64,000 bases of DNA from Candidatus Nanoarchaeia archaeon (GTDB taxonomy: Archaea; Nanobdellota; Nanobdellia; SCGC-AAA011-G17; JAFCDX01), in assembly GCA_028716945.1 (NCBI GenBank), contig JAQUOT010000001.1, positions 466,471 to 530,470 on the forward strand. Direction: 5' to 3'. A model generated the notes under the pieces. It did no database searches, had not been told where the DNA came from, and saw only the letters and a program-made list of their open reading frames with translations. The translations under genes and the position numbers were made by a program. Of this stretch, positions 21,492 through 35,240 are shown one piece after another (positions within the stretch are counted from its first letter, which is position 1; each line of letters starts with the position of its first letter).

Positions 21492-21602
21492 CTTACAGAT
21501 AATAGTTTAAAACCCATATTTATAAATATTGTGATTTTTGTAAGCAAAAAGCTTTTAAATTATCTTTAGTAACAGATTCTGTGGACCCATAGTCTAGTGG
21601 TT

Positions 21603-21633
21603 AACCTTTAAGAGTAATCTTAAAAGTCCATAA
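21603..21633 (+). other. tRNA-Val intron 1 (D-loop, after position 20a)
   Basis: 31 nt. Central helix GTGG (21597-21600) with CCAT (21628-21631); 5' bulge TTA (21601-21603) cut after the second base; 3' bulge AAA (21632-21634) cut likewise. The intron body is a hairpin, ACCTTTAAGA with TCTTAAAAGT, with one mismatch. Position is non-canonical. Confidence 0.8.
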
Positions 21634-21646
21634 ACGACGTTGCCCT

Positions 21647-21675
21647 TTAAATTGGCATAAGCTAATTTAGGCAAG
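21647..21675 (+). other. tRNA-Val intron 2 (between positions 33 and 34)
   Basis: 29 nt. The exon anticodon-stem strand TTGCC (21640-21644) pairs with intron GGCAA (21670-21674) as central helix; 5' bulge CTT (21645-21647); inner helix TAAATT/AATTTA (21648-21653 with 21664-21669) directly abutting; 3' bulge AGT (21674-21676). The fold competes with the true anticodon stem until the intron leaves. Confidence 0.8.
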
Positions 21676-21679
21676 TACA

Positions 21680-21694
21680 AGTAAACACTAAGTC
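21680..21694 (+). other. tRNA-Val intron 3 (canonical 37/38)
   Basis: 15 nt. After intron 2 is gone, CTTA (21645-21646 joined to 21676-21677) pairs with TAAG (21689-21692); 5' bulge CAA (21678-21680), 3' bulge TCA (21693-21695), inner helix GT/AC, outer helix the true anticodon stem. A strict BHB at the standard place. Confidence 0.8.
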
Positions 21695-21731
21695 AGGCGA
21701 AGACCGCCGGTTCGATTCCGGCTGGGTCCAC

Positions 21732-22427
21732 TCATATTTTTAAAGGAACAATCTCTTTAAATTGCTCATTATAAGGCATACTTGTAGATATAGAACATCT
21801 TGAATATTCTTTTCCATCTTTTTTAAGTATATTTTTGTATGGACCTAACATTTTAATTTTATAATATTTTTCACATAATTTGTTAATTTCTAATAAGAAG
21901 GTATAATTAGATCCATTTAACATTATTCCATATACTTTACTAAAATAACCGTCTGTATCAAACAAACCTGCTAAAAAATGTTTGAATAACTCTCTATTTT
22001 GAACCTCCTTAGGTATCTGTAAATTTAATTTTTTATTTTCAATGTTTAAATATTTACTAAAATAGAGCCATACAAATTTATTGTTTATCTCAAGAACATA
22101 ACAATTGTTGTAGTTTTTCTTATAGATTCTTGTTGGAACATTAAATTCTTTTTTTAGATATTCATTTAACCTGATTAGATATTGTTTAGAATCATTATAA
22201 ATATATAATTTTGTTCTTGGGTATTTTGAAACCTTTCTTATGGACTTCTCTAATCTTCCATCTCCCATAATTACTCCAAATAAATAAGCAACATCTTTAT
22301 TTACTTCTTTTGGAAGTTTTATCTTATGGTTAGACCTTTTTACCTTTGTAAATATGTAACCTTCTTTTTCTTCTAAAAGTATAGAATCTTTACTTATTAT
22401 AGAATAATCTAATATTTTATTTAACAT
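21732..22427 (-). CDS. LAGLIDADG homing endonuclease, free-standing
   Basis: 231 residues with both dodecapeptide motifs: VAYLFGVIMGDGRLEK (about residue 48) and FKHFLAGLFDTDGYFSK (about residue 150), each with the catalytic Asp, so a monomeric double-motif enzyme. It ends one base beyond the intron-rich tRNA-Val gene and is convergent to it. LAGLIDADG enzymes copy themselves or their host intron into uninterrupted alleles by double-strand cleavage. It is not inside an intron or intein here; it may have targeted the tRNA gene. An rtcB intein with its own LAGLIDADG domain lies 10 kb away. Confidence 0.88.
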   Translation of the reverse strand: MLNKILDYSIISKDSILLEEKEGYIFTKVKRSNHKIKLPKEVNKDVAYLFGVIMGDGRLEKSIRKVSKYPRTKLYIYNDSKQYLIRLNEYLKKEFNVPTRIYKKNYNNCYVLEINNKFVWLYFSKYLNIENKKLNLQIPKEVQNRELFKHFLAGLFDTDGYFSKVYGIMLNGSNYTFLLEINKLCEKYYKIKMLGPYKNILKKDGKEYSRCSISTSMPYNEQFKEIVPLKI

Positions 22428-23021: not shown

Positions 23022-23426
23022 ATGAAATACAAATTTCTAGAACATAAAGCAGATGCTAAGTTTCAAGCATTTGGGAAATCTTTGGAAGAAGCCTTTTCTA
23101 ATGCAGCTCTTGCTATGACTTCTATTATGATATCTCCAGAATTAGTAGAATCTAAGATAACTAAAAAAATTACTGCTTCTGGAAAAGATAAAAAAGCTTT
23201 GTTATATAATTTTCTTGAGCAATTTTTAGTTTTATTAGATATAGAAAGTTTTATTCTTCATGAAGTTAAAAATATAAAAATTACTGGAAATAAACTAACT
23301 GCAGAAGTTGTTGGAGATTTAATAACTGATAAATATTCTTTAAAGAGCGATGTAAAAGCAGTTACTTATAATCACATGGAAATAAAAGAGAAACCTTATA
23401 TTGTTCAGGTTGTTGTGGATATTTAA
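23022..23426 (+). CDS. Archease (RtcB activator)
   Basis: 134 residues: MKYKFLEHKADAKFQAFGKS, EEAFSNAALAMTSIM, LLYNFLEQFLVLLDIESF and a C-terminal KAVTYNHMEIKEKPYIVQVVVDI. The metal-site residues of the family are visible (H-x-AD near the N-terminus, T-x-NHM near the end, terminal Asp). Archease speeds the guanylation cycle of the RNA ligase RtcB. In many genomes archease and rtcB are neighbours; here the MoxR/variable-protein operon lies between them. Confidence 0.95.
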   Translation: MKYKFLEHKADAKFQAFGKSLEEAFSNAALAMTSIMISPELVESKITKKITASGKDKKALLYNFLEQFLVLLDIESFILHEVKNIKITGNKLTAEVVGDLITDKYSLKSDVKAVTYNHMEIKEKPYIVQVVVDI

Positions 23427-23506: not shown

Positions 23507-23555
23507 TAAGGCATTATACTTCTTGTTACTATAGGGTAGTATAATATTGCATAAA

Positions 23556-24344
23556 ATGGTAAATATAATAGGAGATAAAACAGGAAGTAAGTACGATCCT
23601 AATCTAGCTGAAAGACTAAACAAGGAAGTAGAAGAAAAAATAAGAAGAGAAAGATTAGAAAAAAAGAAATTAAAAAAAACAGAATTAAAACCTAAACAAG
23701 AATCTCCAGTAACAGAACCAGGAATTATAACTCCCAATGATAACAGCTGGTTAATAGAAAATGATGAATATACCATACAATTATCCAAATCTTTAATACC
23801 TTCTACAACTCAAGCAAATCAAATTAACGATTATAATACAAATCCGACTGCATTTAAACCAGCAAGTTATCCAGACATATTCTTAATAGGGCAAATGTTA
23901 TATCATAGTCATAAACAGATAGGTGAAATACTAAATTTCTTAACAGAATCATTCCAAAATAATTGGATTCAAACTTCATCTGGAATATTATATAAATCAA
24001 ATGGAAAAGATGAAATAATTCATGATAAAGGAATGTCTTCTGAATATAAACATTTAACAGACTTAATTGGTTCAGATGGAGAAGTAGTACAAGCTGATGA
24101 AGAAGCATTAAAATATTTAACAGGATTAAAGGATTTAGATGAAATAAAAGAAATAGCTCAATTTCTTACTTCTAAAGATAAAACTTATATCTGGAGATTT
24201 AATAAAAAACCTGATTCAGATACTTATAGGGTTGCTAGGTTCGGCGCTAGTTCTGGTGGGGCTATCCTCTACTGTGGCAGGAATGCTGATTACTCGGTTC
24301 CTGCGCTTGGGGTACGTGTAGCGAAAAAAATGGAAGTTAATTAA
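23556..24344 (+). CDS. DGR-type variable protein 1 (C-type-lectin-like C-terminus)
   Basis: Start chosen at MVNIIGDK because the paralogues begin there. Three parts: the N-terminal tag IIGDKTGSKYDPNLAERLN and a charged coil with a proline-containing linker (about 1-60); a middle helical region (FLIGQMLYHSHKQIGEILNF); and a C-terminal C-lectin-type segment (RVARFGASSGGAILYCGR to ALGVRVA). The last 30 codons are GC-rich and match three other genes at fixed codons only. No signal peptide. It is the first gene of the operon and a close copy of variable protein 2. Probably a binding protein whose specificity is diversified. Confidence 0.8.
   Translation: MVNIIGDKTGSKYDPNLAERLNKEVEEKIRRERLEKKKLKKTELKPKQESPVTEPGIITPNDNSWLIENDEYTIQLSKSLIPSTTQANQINDYNTNPTAFKPASYPDIFLIGQMLYHSHKQIGEILNFLTESFQNNWIQTSSGILYKSNGKDEIIHDKGMSSEYKHLTDLIGSDGEVVQADEEALKYLTGLKDLDEIKEIAQFLTSKDKTYIWRFNKKPDSDTYRVARFGASSGGAILYCGRNADYSVPALGVRVAKKMEVN
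24228..24317 (+). repeat. Variable region 1 (90 nt, DGR target signature)
   Basis: GC-rich 30-codon segment. It aligns without gaps to 26549-26638, 28369-28458 and 29198-29287. GTT GCT at codons 2-3, TTC at 5, TCT at 9, GCT at 12, CTC at 14, CCT at 25 and GGG GTA at 28-29 are fixed. Differences concentrate at first and second bases of codons ending in C or T, and at the first base of NGG codons. Confidence 0.8.
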
Positions 24345-24346
24345 AA

Positions 24347-24490
24347 ATGAAACAAAAATTAAGCATAACGATAGATGAAGAAAAAGTAAAATTAATTGAA
24401 AAGATTATAGAATCTGGAAAATTCAGAAACAAATCTCACATTCTTGAATATAGTTTAAACAAATTATTGGAGGAAAATAAAAATGAATGA
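24347..24490 (+). CDS. Ribbon-helix-helix protein, 47 aa
   Basis: MKQKLSITIDEEKVKLIEKI then IIESGKFRNKSHILEYSL: one beta-strand, helix, turn, helix, the pattern of CopG/Arc-type DNA-binding dimers, including the G-F-N-S turn between the helices. It starts 2 nt after variable protein 1 and overlaps the MoxR gene by 8 nt. Likely a regulator of the operon, or an antitoxin-like partner. Confidence 0.8.
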   Translation: MKQKLSITIDEEKVKLIEKIIESGKFRNKSHILEYSLNKLLEENKNE

Positions 24491-25877
24491 AAAATTAACT
24501 TATGAAGATTTAAAATTAGGGGAAAAAGCAAAAGAAGCTTTCTTAAAAGGAGAATCAACTGAATACATAATTAAAAGTTGTCCGGTTTATTTAAATACAA
24601 ATCCAGTTTTTGGTAATTTAAATGCAACAGATTTAGTTATTGCTGCAGTATTGGGAAATGTAAATACTTTGCTTGTAGGAGATACAGGTACAGGTAAAAC
24701 CCAGTTAGCTAAAGATATTTATAATTATTATTTTAATGGAAACAAAGCAGAGAATGGTAATGGTATTTTAATAAGAGGAAAACCAGAACTAGACATTAAT
24801 TCAGAAATATTTACAAAATTAAATATTTCACAAGCTCAAAGAGAATTAACTGATAATATAGATTCATTAATTTATCTTGTAGATGAATTAAATAGAAGTC
24901 CTGCTATTGGTCAAAACCAATTTTTTGGTCTTGGAGACGGAGTAATGGACTTTGGTGGAAAAGCTATAAGATTAGGAAAAGATGGATATAGTTTATTGCT
25001 TTCAACTGCAAATCTTGGAAATGGAGAATTTCAAGGTACTTTTGAAACTGATAAAGCATTATATAATAGACTTGCAGTTGCAATAGATTTTGATTATTCT
25101 AAATTCAAACCTACTCAAGAAGATAGAATATTAATAGATTTGTTAAGAGCTGCAGATCCAAGAGTAAAAGAAGCTCCAAAGAGAGACATTACTGAAAAAA
25201 TAATGCAAGCAAACAGGGAAATAGAAGAAATTTCTAGAAATCCAGGTTTGGAAGCATTGGCAGTAATTAACTTCTTGAAATTTGGATTGGATAACTGTCA
25301 GAAATACAATTCAAAAGAAAAAATATGGCCATTGAATTGCCAAGCTTGTGACAAAAACAAAGGTGATGGAGATGAAGAAGTTAAATTAAAAGAATATGGA
25401 ATCTGCTCTTTGATAAGAGCACCAGTTGAAAGAACTACAAGTGCTACTCTAAGATATGCAGCAGCATTGCAGTACTTAATGAAGTTGAAAAATCCAAATG
25501 AAAAAATAAATACTACTGAATTATTGTTTAAAGCTTTTGAAATGACAGGAGCTTATCAATCTTTATTGAATCCAACAATTTTGAAACAAGATTATTATGA
25601 CCAAAATCCAAAAATGATGGCTGATGTTGTTGACAAATTAAAGAAAGATTATGCAAAAGCTGAGAAATTTATCATTGCTAGTTTAGAAGCTGTAGAACAA
25701 GGTAAAAAAGTTAATACTTTTTTTGTACACGAAGATAGAATAGGAAATTATGAGGATTTATCAAATGAAGCAAAAAGAAGCATTACAAAAATAGATCCTT
25801 TTACAGATAGAGGTAAATTGGGATATGGTTGGGTTAATACTTTGTTAGATTTAACTTCAAAACTTAAAAGAAAATGA
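24483..25877 (+). CDS. MoxR-type AAA+ ATPase
   Basis: 464 residues. Walker A GDTGTGKTQLAKDIY, Walker B SLIYLVDELNRSP, sensor 1 LLLSTANLGNGEFQGTFE, and an arginine-containing LYNRLAVAIDF as in MoxR/CbbQ/AAA_5 ATPases. A short insertion with cysteines (WPLNCQACDKN, YGICSLI) is unusual and could bind metal. MoxR ATPases act as chaperones or activators together with vWA-domain partners; one is encoded at 29368. It overlaps variable protein 2 by 4 nt. It probably remodels or releases the variable proteins. Confidence 0.9.
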   Translation: MNEKLTYEDLKLGEKAKEAFLKGESTEYIIKSCPVYLNTNPVFGNLNATDLVIAAVLGNVNTLLVGDTGTGKTQLAKDIYNYYFNGNKAENGNGILIRGKPELDINSEIFTKLNISQAQRELTDNIDSLIYLVDELNRSPAIGQNQFFGLGDGVMDFGGKAIRLGKDGYSLLLSTANLGNGEFQGTFETDKALYNRLAVAIDFDYSKFKPTQEDRILIDLLRAADPRVKEAPKRDITEKIMQANREIEEISRNPGLEALAVINFLKFGLDNCQKYNSKEKIWPLNCQACDKNKGDGDEEVKLKEYGICSLIRAPVERTTSATLRYAAALQYLMKLKNPNEKINTTELLFKAFEMTGAYQSLLNPTILKQDYYDQNPKMMADVVDKLKKDYAKAEKFIIASLEAVEQGKKVNTFFVHEDRIGNYEDLSNEAKRSITKIDPFTDRGKLGYGWVNTLLDLTSKLKRK

Positions 25878-26668
25878 AAGACGATATTAAAATAATTGGA
25901 GACAGAACAGAAAGTAAGTACGATCCTAATCTAGCTGAAAGACTAAACAAGGAAGTAGAAGAAAAAATAAGAAGAGAAAGATTAGAAGGAAAAAAAACAG
26001 AATTAAAACCTAAACAAGAATCTCCAGTAACAGAACCAGAAATTATAACTCCAAATGATGACAGCTGGTTAATAGAAAGTGATAAATATGCTATACAATT
26101 ATCCAAATCTTTAATACCCTCTGCAACTCAAGCAAAACAAATAAATGATTATACTACAAATCCCGATTCATTCAAACCAGCAAACTACCCAAACATATTT
26201 TTAATAGGGCAGATGTTATATCATAATAGTCATCAACAAAAAGATAAAATACTAAAATTCTTGACAGAATCATTCCAAAATAATTGGATTCAAACCTCAT
26301 CTGGAATATTATATAAATCAAATGGAAAAGATGAAATAATTCATAATATAAAAATGCCTTCTGAATATAAACATCTAACAGACTTAATAAGTTCAGATGG
26401 AGAAGTAGTACAAGCTGATGAAGAAGCATTAAAATATTTAACAGGATTAAAAAGTTTAGATGAAATAAAAGAAATAGCCCAATTCCTTACTTCTAAAAAT
26501 AAAACTTATATCTCGAGATTTAATAAAAAACCTGATTCAGATACTTATAGGGTTGCTTGGTTCTACACTAACTCTGATAGGGCTTACCTCGACTGCGACT
26601 GGGATCCTGGTCACTTATATCCTGCTCTCGGGGTACGTATCGTAGCGAAAAAAATAGTGGGGAATTAA
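25874..26668 (+). CDS. DGR-type variable protein 2
   Basis: 264 residues and a near-duplicate of variable protein 1: the same tag (IIGDRTESKYDPNLAERLN), linker and middle region, with long stretches identical at the DNA level (for example around 25912-25985 and 26260-26345). The C-terminal 30 codons differ much more in residues: RVAWFYTNSDRAYLDCDWDP versus RVARFGASSGGAILYCGRNA. That contrast, conserved frame with changed variable region, is what targeted diversification predicts. It overlaps the MoxR stop by 4 nt. Confidence 0.8.
   Translation: MKDDIKIIGDRTESKYDPNLAERLNKEVEEKIRRERLEGKKTELKPKQESPVTEPEIITPNDDSWLIESDKYAIQLSKSLIPSATQAKQINDYTTNPDSFKPANYPNIFLIGQMLYHNSHQQKDKILKFLTESFQNNWIQTSSGILYKSNGKDEIIHNIKMPSEYKHLTDLISSDGEVVQADEEALKYLTGLKSLDEIKEIAQFLTSKNKTYISRFNKKPDSDTYRVAWFYTNSDRAYLDCDWDPGHLYPALGVRIVAKKIVGN
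26549..26638 (+). repeat. Variable region 2
   Basis: 90 nt, in register with the other three. Immediately after it TACG-TAT-CGTA (26634-26644) can form a small hairpin. Codon 30 is the shared CGT (Arg). Confidence 0.75.
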
Positions 26669-32396: not shown

Positions 32397-35240
32397 ATGG
32401 ATACAAGACTAAAAAAGATATCAGAATATGAATGGGGGATTGAAAAAACAGGCAAAATGCTTGTTCCAGGTAAAATATTTGCTTCTAAGAAATTAGTTGA
32501 AGCAATAGAGCCTGAAGCAATCCAACAATTAGCAAACGTTGCAACATTAAAAGGGATCCAAAAGAGTGCTCTGGCAATGCCAGATATACATTCAGGATTG
32601 TTATTAAGTTAGATCTTATAACCCTGAGATGGTTTCCCTATAGGTGGAGTTGCAGCTTTTGATCTAAAAGAAGGTATAATCTCGCCTGGTGGCGTTGGAT
32701 ATGATATTAATTGTTTAACCGAAGATTCCAATATTTTAGGAGAATTTGGTACTTTTAAAGAAATAAAAGATTTTCAAGAGGATTTTATAGAAATTGATTC
32801 CGGTAAAGATTTAATTTTAAAAAAGAAAATTTTCTTGAATAGGTTGACTACTCTCAACATAAAATCTAAGAGATTAGAAGATAAAGAAATAGAATTTTTT
32901 ATGGTAAAAGATAAAGATAATATTTTTGAAATGCAAACAGAATGTAATTTTAATATAAAATCTACTAAAAATCATCCTTTCTTAACAAAAAAAGGAATGA
33001 TCTTACTAAAAGATTTAGAAAAAAATAAAGAAATTGCAATAAATACTTTTAAAGGAGTTAATTATAATCAAAGGATAGATAGGAAAAAAGCTATTTTATC
33101 TAAATTATTTGGATATTTATTAGGCGATGGCTATGTAAATATTTCTAAAAATAAAGGATATATCTCTTTTTATGGACAAAAAGAAGATTTAGAAGAGATA
33201 CAAAAAGATTTGAAAGGATTGGGTTTTAATTCTAATTTAATTTCAAGAGAAAGAAATCATAAAATTAATACAAAATATGGAATTAAAGAATTTAGCGCTA
33301 AGAATTATGAATTATATAATCGATCTAAGGAATTTGCATTTTTATTAAAAGAATTAGGTATGCAACTTGGAAATAAAACAAATCAGAAATTTTTACTTCC
33401 AGATTGGATAATGAATGGAGAAATTTATGTAAAAAGATTGTTTTTGGCAGGATTTTTCGGGGCAGAATTAAGTTCTCCAAGCACTCACACAAAAACAGGA
33501 TTTTATTCTCCTATTTTATCACAAAATAAGAATACTAAATTGAAAAATAATGCAAGAGAATTTTTATTGCAAATAACAAAATTACTAGAAGAATTTGGTG
33601 TTAAAGTTAATAAAATAAGTGAAGATAAAGAATTAGTTAATTTAAGGTTTAGATTAATTATTTCTGCTCAAGAAGATAATTTATTAAATTTATATCAAAA
33701 AATAGGTTATGAATATAATAAAAAAAGAAAAAGATTAGCAGATATAGCCTGTCTGTACATCTTAAAGAAAAAACAAATACAAAAAGAAAGAAGTGAAATT
33801 GCTAATAAAATAAAAGAATATAAGATGAAAGGATTCAAACTTAAAGAATTATATTCTAACTTTTCAGGTAAAGTAAATAAAAGATTTATTGAAAGGCATT
33901 ATTATGAAAAGTGTAATCAAAGAATAAATTTAGATTTCATCTCTTTTGAAGAGTTTAAGAGATTAAAATTAAAAGAATATGAAAAATATGGTTGCATTTT
34001 TGATACTATCAAATCAATTGTTAAATTAAATAAACAAGAGAAGGTATATGATTTTACTGTTAAAGATAATCATAACTTTATTGCAAACAATTTTATAGTT
34101 TCTAATTGTGGAGTAAGAATTTTATCTACTAGTGTTTCTGTAAAAGAATTTCTTAAAAAAAGAGAGCAATTAATTGAAGAAGTTTACAAAAATGTTCCTT
34201 CGGGTTTAGGTAGTAAAGGAAGAATTAAAGTTACTAAAGATTTGTTAATGGAAGTTTTAAAAAAAGGAACAAAATGGGCAGTTGAATCTGGATATGGAAT
34301 TAAAGAAGATATACAAAGAACAGAAGAATATGGTTGCATGCCAAAAGCAGATCCAAGTGTAATTTCAGATACTGCATTAAAAAGAGGAATGCCACAATTA
34401 GGTTCGTTAGGTTCAGGAAATCATTTCTTAGAAGTTCAGCAAGTTGATAATATATTTGATGAAAAAATAGCAAAAGCATTCGGAATTAACAAAGAAAATG
34501 TTACTGTAATGATTCATTGTGGTTCAAGAGGTTTAGGACATCAAGTTGCTAGCGATTATATTAAATTAATGGAAGATAAATTTGGTTTTAAAGATTTAGC
34601 AGATAGAGAATTAATAAATGCTCCAATAAATTCTGATTTGGGTCAGAAGTATTATGGTGCTATGAGTGCAGCAGTAAATTTTGCTTTTGCAAACAGACAA
34701 ATGATAATGCATTGGGTTAGAGATTCTTTTAAAAATGTTTTTGGTGATGTAAAAATTGATTTAATTTATGATGTTGCTCATAACGTGGCTAAAATGGAAA
34801 AACATAAAATTGATAATAAAATAAAAGAAGTTTGTCTGCATAGAAAAGGTGCAACAAGATCTTTTGGTCCTGGAAATGAAAGTTTACCTGAAGTTTATCA
34901 AAAAACAGGAGTGCCGGTATTGATTCCGGGGTCGATGGGAACTTCTTCATATATAATGGTGGGAACAAAAAAAGCAGAAGAAATTTCATTTGGAAGTACT
35001 GCTCATGGTGCTGGAAGAATAATGTCAAGACATTCTGCATTAAAACAATTTAGGGGAGAAACCATTAAAAAAGAATTACATGAAAGAGGAATAGAAGTAA
35101 AATCAGGTTCTTATGCTGGATTAGCTGAAGAAGCACCGGGCGTGTATAAAGATATTGAGTCGGTTATAGAAGTTTCTCATAATGTGGGTTTAGCAAGTAA
35201 AGTAGCAAAAGTTGTTCCTTTATGTGTTATTAAAGGTTAA
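32397..35240 (+). CDS. rtcB: RNA-splicing ligase RtcB, interrupted by a BHB intron and an intein
   Basis: The reading frame breaks at 32610-32612 (TAG) shortly after MPDIHSG. Removing 32599-32628 joins 32598 to 32629, restores the invariant MPDIHSGYGFPIGGVAAFD and continues to 35240. Predicted precursor 937 aa; after removal of the 465-aa intein, 472 aa, normal for RtcB. Conserved parts: GYDIN/CGVRIL (metal-binding Cys), IHCGSRGLGHQ, CLHRKGATRSFGPGNE, PGSMGTSSYIM and STAHGAGRIMSR (guanylated His). RtcB joins 2',3'-cyclic phosphate and 5'-OH ends, the very ends produced by BHB cutting, so this mRNA needs its own product. Confidence 0.88.
32599..32628 (+). other. BHB-type pre-mRNA intron in rtcB (30 nt)
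   Basis: Inner helix GTTAT(T)AAG with CTTATAAC (32600-32608 with 32615-32622); 5' bulge ATT (32597-32599) cut after the second base; central helix CAGG/CCTG (32593-32596 with 32623-32626, extendable by one T-A pair); 3' bulge AGA (32627-32629) cut after the second base. The cut sites predicted from structure are exactly those needed to rebuild the Tyr codon. Confidence 0.85.
32712..34106 (+). other. Intein in RtcB with LAGLIDADG endonuclease domain
   Basis: 465 codons between GYDIN and CGVRIL. N-terminal block CLTEDSNILGEFGTF (Cys1), block B STKNHPFLT, endonuclease motifs LFGYLLGDGYVN and LFLAGFFGAELSS (second acid as Glu), C-terminal blocks VYDFTVKDNHNFIANNF and IVSN before Cys+1. The penultimate residue is Ser instead of the usual His. 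It sits directly before the catalytic metal-binding cysteine. Confidence 0.92.

Follow-up and report, generated by a model that had tools for sequence, protein, structure and literature searches.

The tRNA-Val(UAC) gene described here is very likely functional and probably the sole gene for its tRNA in the genome, and its sequence predicts three protein-spliced bulge-helix-bulge (BHB) introns, ordered removal of the second intron before the third, and the insertion of a newer intron inside the helix of an older one. It lies on the forward strand at positions 21583-21730 of the window, by which we mean the whole 64,000-nucleotide stretch that was analysed (C1:466471-530470), and measures 148 nt unspliced and 73 nt after loss of its three introns. 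The genome (803,636 bases in two contigs, C1 and C2; 27.5% GC; 97.6% completeness) is Pacearchaeota-like, within the class Nanoarchaeia. Exon 1 (21583-21602, 20 nt) holds tRNA positions 1-20a, exon 2 (21634-21646, 13 nt) positions 21-33, and exon 4 (21695-21730, 36 nt) positions 38-73, while exon 3 (21676-21679) is the 4-nt microexon TACA, consisting of the anticodon UAC plus A37. The introns between them are 31 nt (21603-21633, in the D-loop at 20a/21), 29 nt (21647-21675, at 33/34) and 15 nt (21680-21694, at the canonical position 37/38) in length. Transcription may plausibly start from a TATA-box-like element, TTTTAAAT (21553-21560, forward strand), recognized by consensus in an upstream alignment of 35 tRNA genes and situated 23-30 nt in front of the gene. 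Similar elements precede most other tRNA genes of the genome, at ~20-30 nt before the 5′ end of most of them, suggesting very short or no leaders; the loss of RNase P that such spacing might suggest was rejected, as RNase P RNA is encoded at C2:142214-142537.

The Rfam tRNA model (RF00005) matches exactly 21583-21730 with 42.2 bits, and ARAGORN makes no tRNA call there. The exon boundaries were derived with a solver that iteratively splices any BHB, refolds the product and requires an exact cloverleaf, and that was blind to the exons proposed in a preliminary description of this DNA. Under perfect-helix rules the sole solution was the same exon set, giving an intact 73-nt cloverleaf with the anticodon loop CTTACAA. 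When one helix mismatch was permitted, rival parses arose with a poorer D-arm or a wrong anticodon; these were decided against because the D-arm sequence of relatives, GGTTACGACG in the complete Pacearchaeota genome Pace33H (CP061211.1), fits the proposed exons, the intron-1 junction restoring this same D-loop to D-stem sequence. In a control in which the tRNA ends were fixed and the middle was shuffled 1,000 times with dinucleotides preserved, no shuffle attained the solver score and two attained the cloverleaf score alone. Weak solutions of some kind appeared in 40% of the shuffles, so that the score, and not the mere existence of a solution, constitutes the evidence. The originally proposed assembly of a 73-nt tRNA-Val(UAC) from exons of 20, 13, 4 and 36 nt was thus borne out by the blind solver, the shuffles and an intronless ortholog, and the reading of TACA as the anticodon plus position 37 by the solver, BHB pairing and ortholog alignment. 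A group I intron core had no Rfam match in the window, the introns of this gene being only 15-31 nt long, and a split or tri-split organization is excluded by the colinearity of all exons within 148 nt.

The archaeal BHB comprises a 4-bp central helix between the 5′ exon and the 3′ end of the intron, flanked by 3-nt bulges that are cut between the second and third base. Central helices of this kind were found for introns 1 and 2 in the precursor and for intron 3 in the RNA from which intron 2 had been spliced. Intron 1 has the helix GTGG/CCAT (one G-U pair), 3-nt bulges TTA and AAA with predicted cuts after the second base, and an interrupted 8-bp intron stem, and is relaxed in form, lacking a contiguous outer helix; intron 2 has the helix TGCC/GGCA, a 9-bp intron stem and a 2-bp outer helix. 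The central helix of intron 3, CTTA/TAAG, with the anticodon stem as its outer helix, is perfect once intron 2 has been removed and is present only then, the unspliced RNA offering two of the four pairs (AGTA/TAAG). The initial claim that each intron possesses its own BHB therefore stands for introns 1 and 2 and fails for intron 3 in the unspliced RNA. The strict hBHBh′ form, with contiguous outer and inner helices around both bulges, does not apply to all three, the outer helix of intron 1 not being contiguous and the motif of intron 3 being absent before intron 2 is removed.

Unconstrained nearest-neighbour folding of the 148-nt precursor and its partly spliced forms suggests why the order matters. 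In the precursor introns 1 and 2 each form their BHB helices (mean P 0.76-0.98), and the anticodon stem, at P 0.00, is prevented by the pairing of TGCC (28-31) with GGCA of intron 2. Intron 2 thus keeps the 5′ strand of that stem occupied; once it has been removed, the stem forms with P 0.82. Because BHB 3 depends on the prior loss of intron 2, an order of 2 before 3 is built into the RNA, and splicing should proceed in that order. The BHB-3 helix itself reaches only P=0.17 after removal of intron 2, and a still lower value when intron 1 has been removed as well; nearest-neighbour models undervalue protein-bound BHBs. The folding model favours retention of intron 1 during removal of intron 2, since the D-arm mispairs without intron 1; this is no more than a weak hint.

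We propose that the splicing endonuclease EndA would first excise intron 2 at 33/34, whose 3′ end is base-paired to the anticodon stem's 5′ strand. This step would join CT (32-33) to TA (34-35), creating the CTTA that could pair with TAAG of intron 3, and this pairing together with the anticodon stem would form the canonical 37/38 BHB, so that only then would intron 3 be cut out. Intron 1, in the D-loop, could be removed independently, and RtcB, aided by archease, would ligate the exon ends. The 4-nt anticodon exon would have arisen because an older, canonical 37/38 intron had a newer one, at 33/34, inserted within its central helix. The sequence, its pairing, the dependence of BHB 3 on intron 2, the genes for the enzymes and the intronless orthologs are observed; transcription, cleavage, the order of removal in the cell and the order in which the introns were gained we infer.

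A reversed or alternative order, in which intron 3 leaves first through non-BHB recognition or a lariat-like or circular intermediate that includes the microexon is released, would draw on the ability of EndA enzymes to cut relaxed motifs (PMC12397907), but the half-formed central helix of intron 3 and the unformed anticodon stem of the unspliced RNA make it very unlikely. Still less likely are different boundaries, whether introns 2 and 3 leave as one or slide by 1 nt to yield the exon ACA or TACAA. From sequence alone introns 2 and 3 do show this 1-nt ambiguity, which leaves the spliced sequence unchanged, but perfect BHB helices select 33/34 and 37/38 and the slid versions disrupt them. Likewise, the one-mismatch solver gives a two-intron parse with anticodon UUA, which was rejected, as its D-arm and anticodon conflict with those of all orthologs.

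Least likely of these alternatives is a pseudogene, a decayed tRNA in which the apparent introns are insertions and another tRNA reads the GTA codons. The missing ARAGORN call, the extremity of three insertions and the adjoining homing endonuclease gene would fit such decay, but the joined exons fold as an intact cloverleaf in which an acceptor pair is compensated and the anticodon loop is invariant, other essential tRNAs of the genome are equally heavily interrupted, and no other valine tRNA with this anticodon was found. Genome-wide searches by Rfam, ARAGORN, T-arm pattern, acceptor pairing and BLAST returned no second tRNA-Val(UAC), with the limit that an extra copy could be missing because the genome is 97.6% complete; an uninterrupted copy elsewhere had been named beforehand as the observation that would count against the gene, and none was found. 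GTA is a common codon (22.2 per 1,000 across 352 long ORFs). The gene for tRNA-Val(GAC), at C1:374893-374984, has a single D-loop intron, and tRNA-Val(CAC) was not found in the tRNA searches of this genome. What ARAGORN called "Val tac" at C1:386122 proved to be a tRNA-Leu(UAG) whose 30/31 intron contains the UAC.

Relatives support both the parse and a history for the introns. G001, of the same family, has an uninterrupted 73-nt tRNA-Val(UAC) that aligns without gaps to the spliced product at 65 of 73 identical positions, with an identical anticodon loop and with G-C at the acceptor pair 3-70, which is A-U here; the gene is also uninterrupted in Pace33H. G003 has one intron, at 15/16. In G002 there is an intron at 23/24 and another at 37/38, whose central helix, CTTA/TAAG, is shared with intron 3 here. 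Four family members thus display four intron patterns in this tRNA, with 0 (G001), 1 (G003), 2 (G002) and 3 (the present genome) introns. We infer from these comparisons that the 37/38 intron is probably the older of the two in the anticodon loop and that its central helix later received the 33/34 intron.

The EndA that the genome encodes (PF01974, E=2.4e-30) retains the conserved catalytic residues, and its nearest PDB structure is the Nanoarchaeum equitans catalytic subunit. It is the only PF01974 gene in the genome, even at E<=10, although a beta subunit could be missing because of the 97.6% completeness; across the order, 92 of 99 members were matched, with a second match over the cut-off only in G034, a mixed bin. 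Comparison with 44 relatives and with M. jannaschii EndA revealed no CSL or ASL (Crenarchaea- or ARMAN-specific) loop insertion. The (alpha-beta)2 and epsilon2 forms of EndA are the types linked to non-canonical introns, and neither a second subunit, nor a three-unit fusion, nor either loop was found in this genome. CSL and ASL loops have been proposed to permit relaxed substrates (PMC12397907), and alpha4 EndA has been described as cutting canonical BHBs only (PMC4033280). Two readings are left: the alpha EndA of this organism accepts a wider range of substrates than the tested enzymes do, or a partner escaped detection.

The ligation machinery is encoded in the same window. Archease, the partner of the RtcB tRNA ligase, lies at 23022-23426 of the window (forward strand; PF01951, E=7.6e-36). 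Two similar adjacent ORFs, at 23547-24344 and 25874-26668, lie on either side of an ORF (24483-25877) that resembles AAA-type ATPases, and may stem from a local duplication. The rtcB gene (32397-35240, forward strand; PF01139, E=5e-144) encodes an intein and is also interrupted by a 30-nt BHB-type pre-mRNA intron (32599-32628), which holds stops and has the central helix CAGG/CCTG and a 5-bp stem; its removal restores MPDIHSGYGFPIGGVAAFD and a frame of 937 codons including the intein. RtcB would be needed to splice its own mRNA. The rtcB gene of G001 is uninterrupted; in G004 this codon carries an insertion, and in G003 the gene is broken at the same position of the RtcB model.

Interruption is widespread among the tRNA genes of this genome. 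A hand-checked census, incomplete in that some expected isoacceptors are missing, gave 37 tRNA genes with about 36 introns; 26 genes are interrupted, 8 of them by two or more introns. In contrast, the tRNA genes of Pace33H have mostly single canonical introns. Published mean values are 0.84 introns per tRNA gene for Thermoproteales and 0.21 across archaea, with 71 introns in 46 genes in P. calidifontis (PMC8450103). The tRNA-Phe gene (C1:205115-205264) also has three introns (in the D-loop, near position 26 and in the variable loop), and in tRNA-Ser(CGA) and tRNA-Thr(UGU) the anticodon lies on a 7-nt exon (positions 31-37) between 30/31 and 37/38 introns. Nested intron-in-intron readings of tRNA-Ile(UAU), tRNA-Ser(GCU) and tRNA-Tyr offered by the solver were discounted, as a single 37/38 intron suffices. 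T-loop introns were observed in tRNA-Ala(UGC) (C2:146065-146200, reverse strand) and tRNA-Leu(UAA) (C1:71214-71325, forward strand), and the initiator tRNA (C1:17065-17152), with a 13-nt 37/38 intron, has an apparent C33 in its anticodon loop (CCCATAA). The tRNA-Arg(UCU) gene (C1:427132-427819, reverse strand) carries a D-loop insertion of ~600 nt with a frameshifted LAGLIDADG-like ORF, and a second intron after the anticodon; a group I intron was rejected in this case, there being no Rfam match.

Convergent with the tRNA-Val(UAC) gene, and ending 1 nt from it, is an ORF for a two-motif LAGLIDADG homing endonuclease of 231 aa (21732-22427, reverse strand; PF14528, E=3e-12). Further free-standing LAGLIDADG ORFs lie beside interrupted tRNA genes at C1:16497-17063, 71435-72091, 205215-205952 and 250613-251308 and at C2:138230-139243 and 183498-184172, so that the tRNA genes adjoined are those for Val, iMet, Thr, Phe, Asn, His and Asp. 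Within 150 bp of a tRNA gene lie 8 of the 13 short LAGLIDADG ORFs (mean 0.65 under random placement, and never 8 in 100,000 trials), the eighth being the one inside the tRNA-Arg(UCU) intron, identified by motif only and without a Pfam match. All eight adjoining tRNA genes are interrupted (chance 0.04), and they average 1.75 introns, versus 0.76 for the rest (P 0.003). It is possible, if rather doubtful, that these endonucleases cut uninterrupted tRNA alleles and spread tiny ORF-less BHB introns from genome to genome via repair, in a collaborative homing in which the introns would shield the host tRNA gene from the adjoining endonuclease. LAGLIDADG homologs in other genomes of the order, at loci searched by T-arm and acceptor patterns, also lie beside or overlap tRNA genes; because many of those tRNAs are intronless, and because the loci were picked as best hits to a tRNA-adjacent query, we treat collaborative homing as a lead and not as a result.

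The tRNA-Val(UAC) gene takes an already described type of archaeal tRNA splicing to an extreme. As the preliminary description had noted, triple-intron tRNAs occur in Thermoproteales: tRNA-Glu(UUC) of P. calidifontis and tRNA-Pro(UGG) of P. islandicum likewise have three BHB introns at canonical and non-canonical sites in one cis gene (PMC4390854), whereas the genome here is of DPANN type and has a single alpha-like EndA. A second BHB that forms only after the first intron is gone, and hence a forced order, appears among the tRNAs of the tRNAscan-SE 2.0 paper, in the accessible part of which no case of a 4-nt anticodon exon was found (PMC8450103). The tri-split tRNA-Gly of Caldivirga maquilingensis similarly places the anticodon loop on its own middle piece, but joins three transcripts in trans (PMC4390854), unlike the single 148-nt cis gene described here. 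In the Asgard Atabeyarchaeia and Freyarchaeia, a different lineage, most tRNA genes are interrupted and over half have multiple, often non-canonical introns, with no mention of a microexon found in the available sections of that report (PMC11291895). The tRNA-Ile(UAU) of Cyanidioschyzon merolae also has three BHB introns, of which the anticodon-arm intron goes last, but they lie at 12/13, 37/38 and 53/54 and do not isolate the anticodon (PMC9602550). Within the present genome, introns flank the anticodon likewise in tRNA-Ser(CGA) and tRNA-Thr(UGU), around 7 nt and not 4. The novelty is therefore smaller than first claimed, the 4-nt form being an extreme variant; multi-intron genes, forced order and an anticodon on its own piece are known (PMC11291895, PMC8450103, PMC4390854), and the two 7-nt anticodon exons narrow it further. 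What is unusual here is the single EndA gene without loops and the abutment of LAGLIDADG genes on tRNA genes far above chance.

In this organism, cis-encoded tRNA fragmentation has been pushed to a 4-nt exon bearing the whole anticodon, in a gene overlooked by standard tRNA callers. With its splicing order written into its pairing, tRNA-Val(UAC) would be a ready substrate for tests of sequential splicing, and the presence of relaxed and non-canonical introns beside a single, loop-less alpha-type EndA tests the current idea that non-canonical introns require such loops or extra subunits. Collaborative homing, if true, would be the driver so far missing for the rapid acquisition of introns by archaeal tRNA genes, and the 4-nt exon would then be the outcome of one anticodon loop having been invaded repeatedly. 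With 0, 1, 2 and 3 introns in one tRNA across four genomes of the same family, intron gain and loss can be traced directly in this group of archaea.
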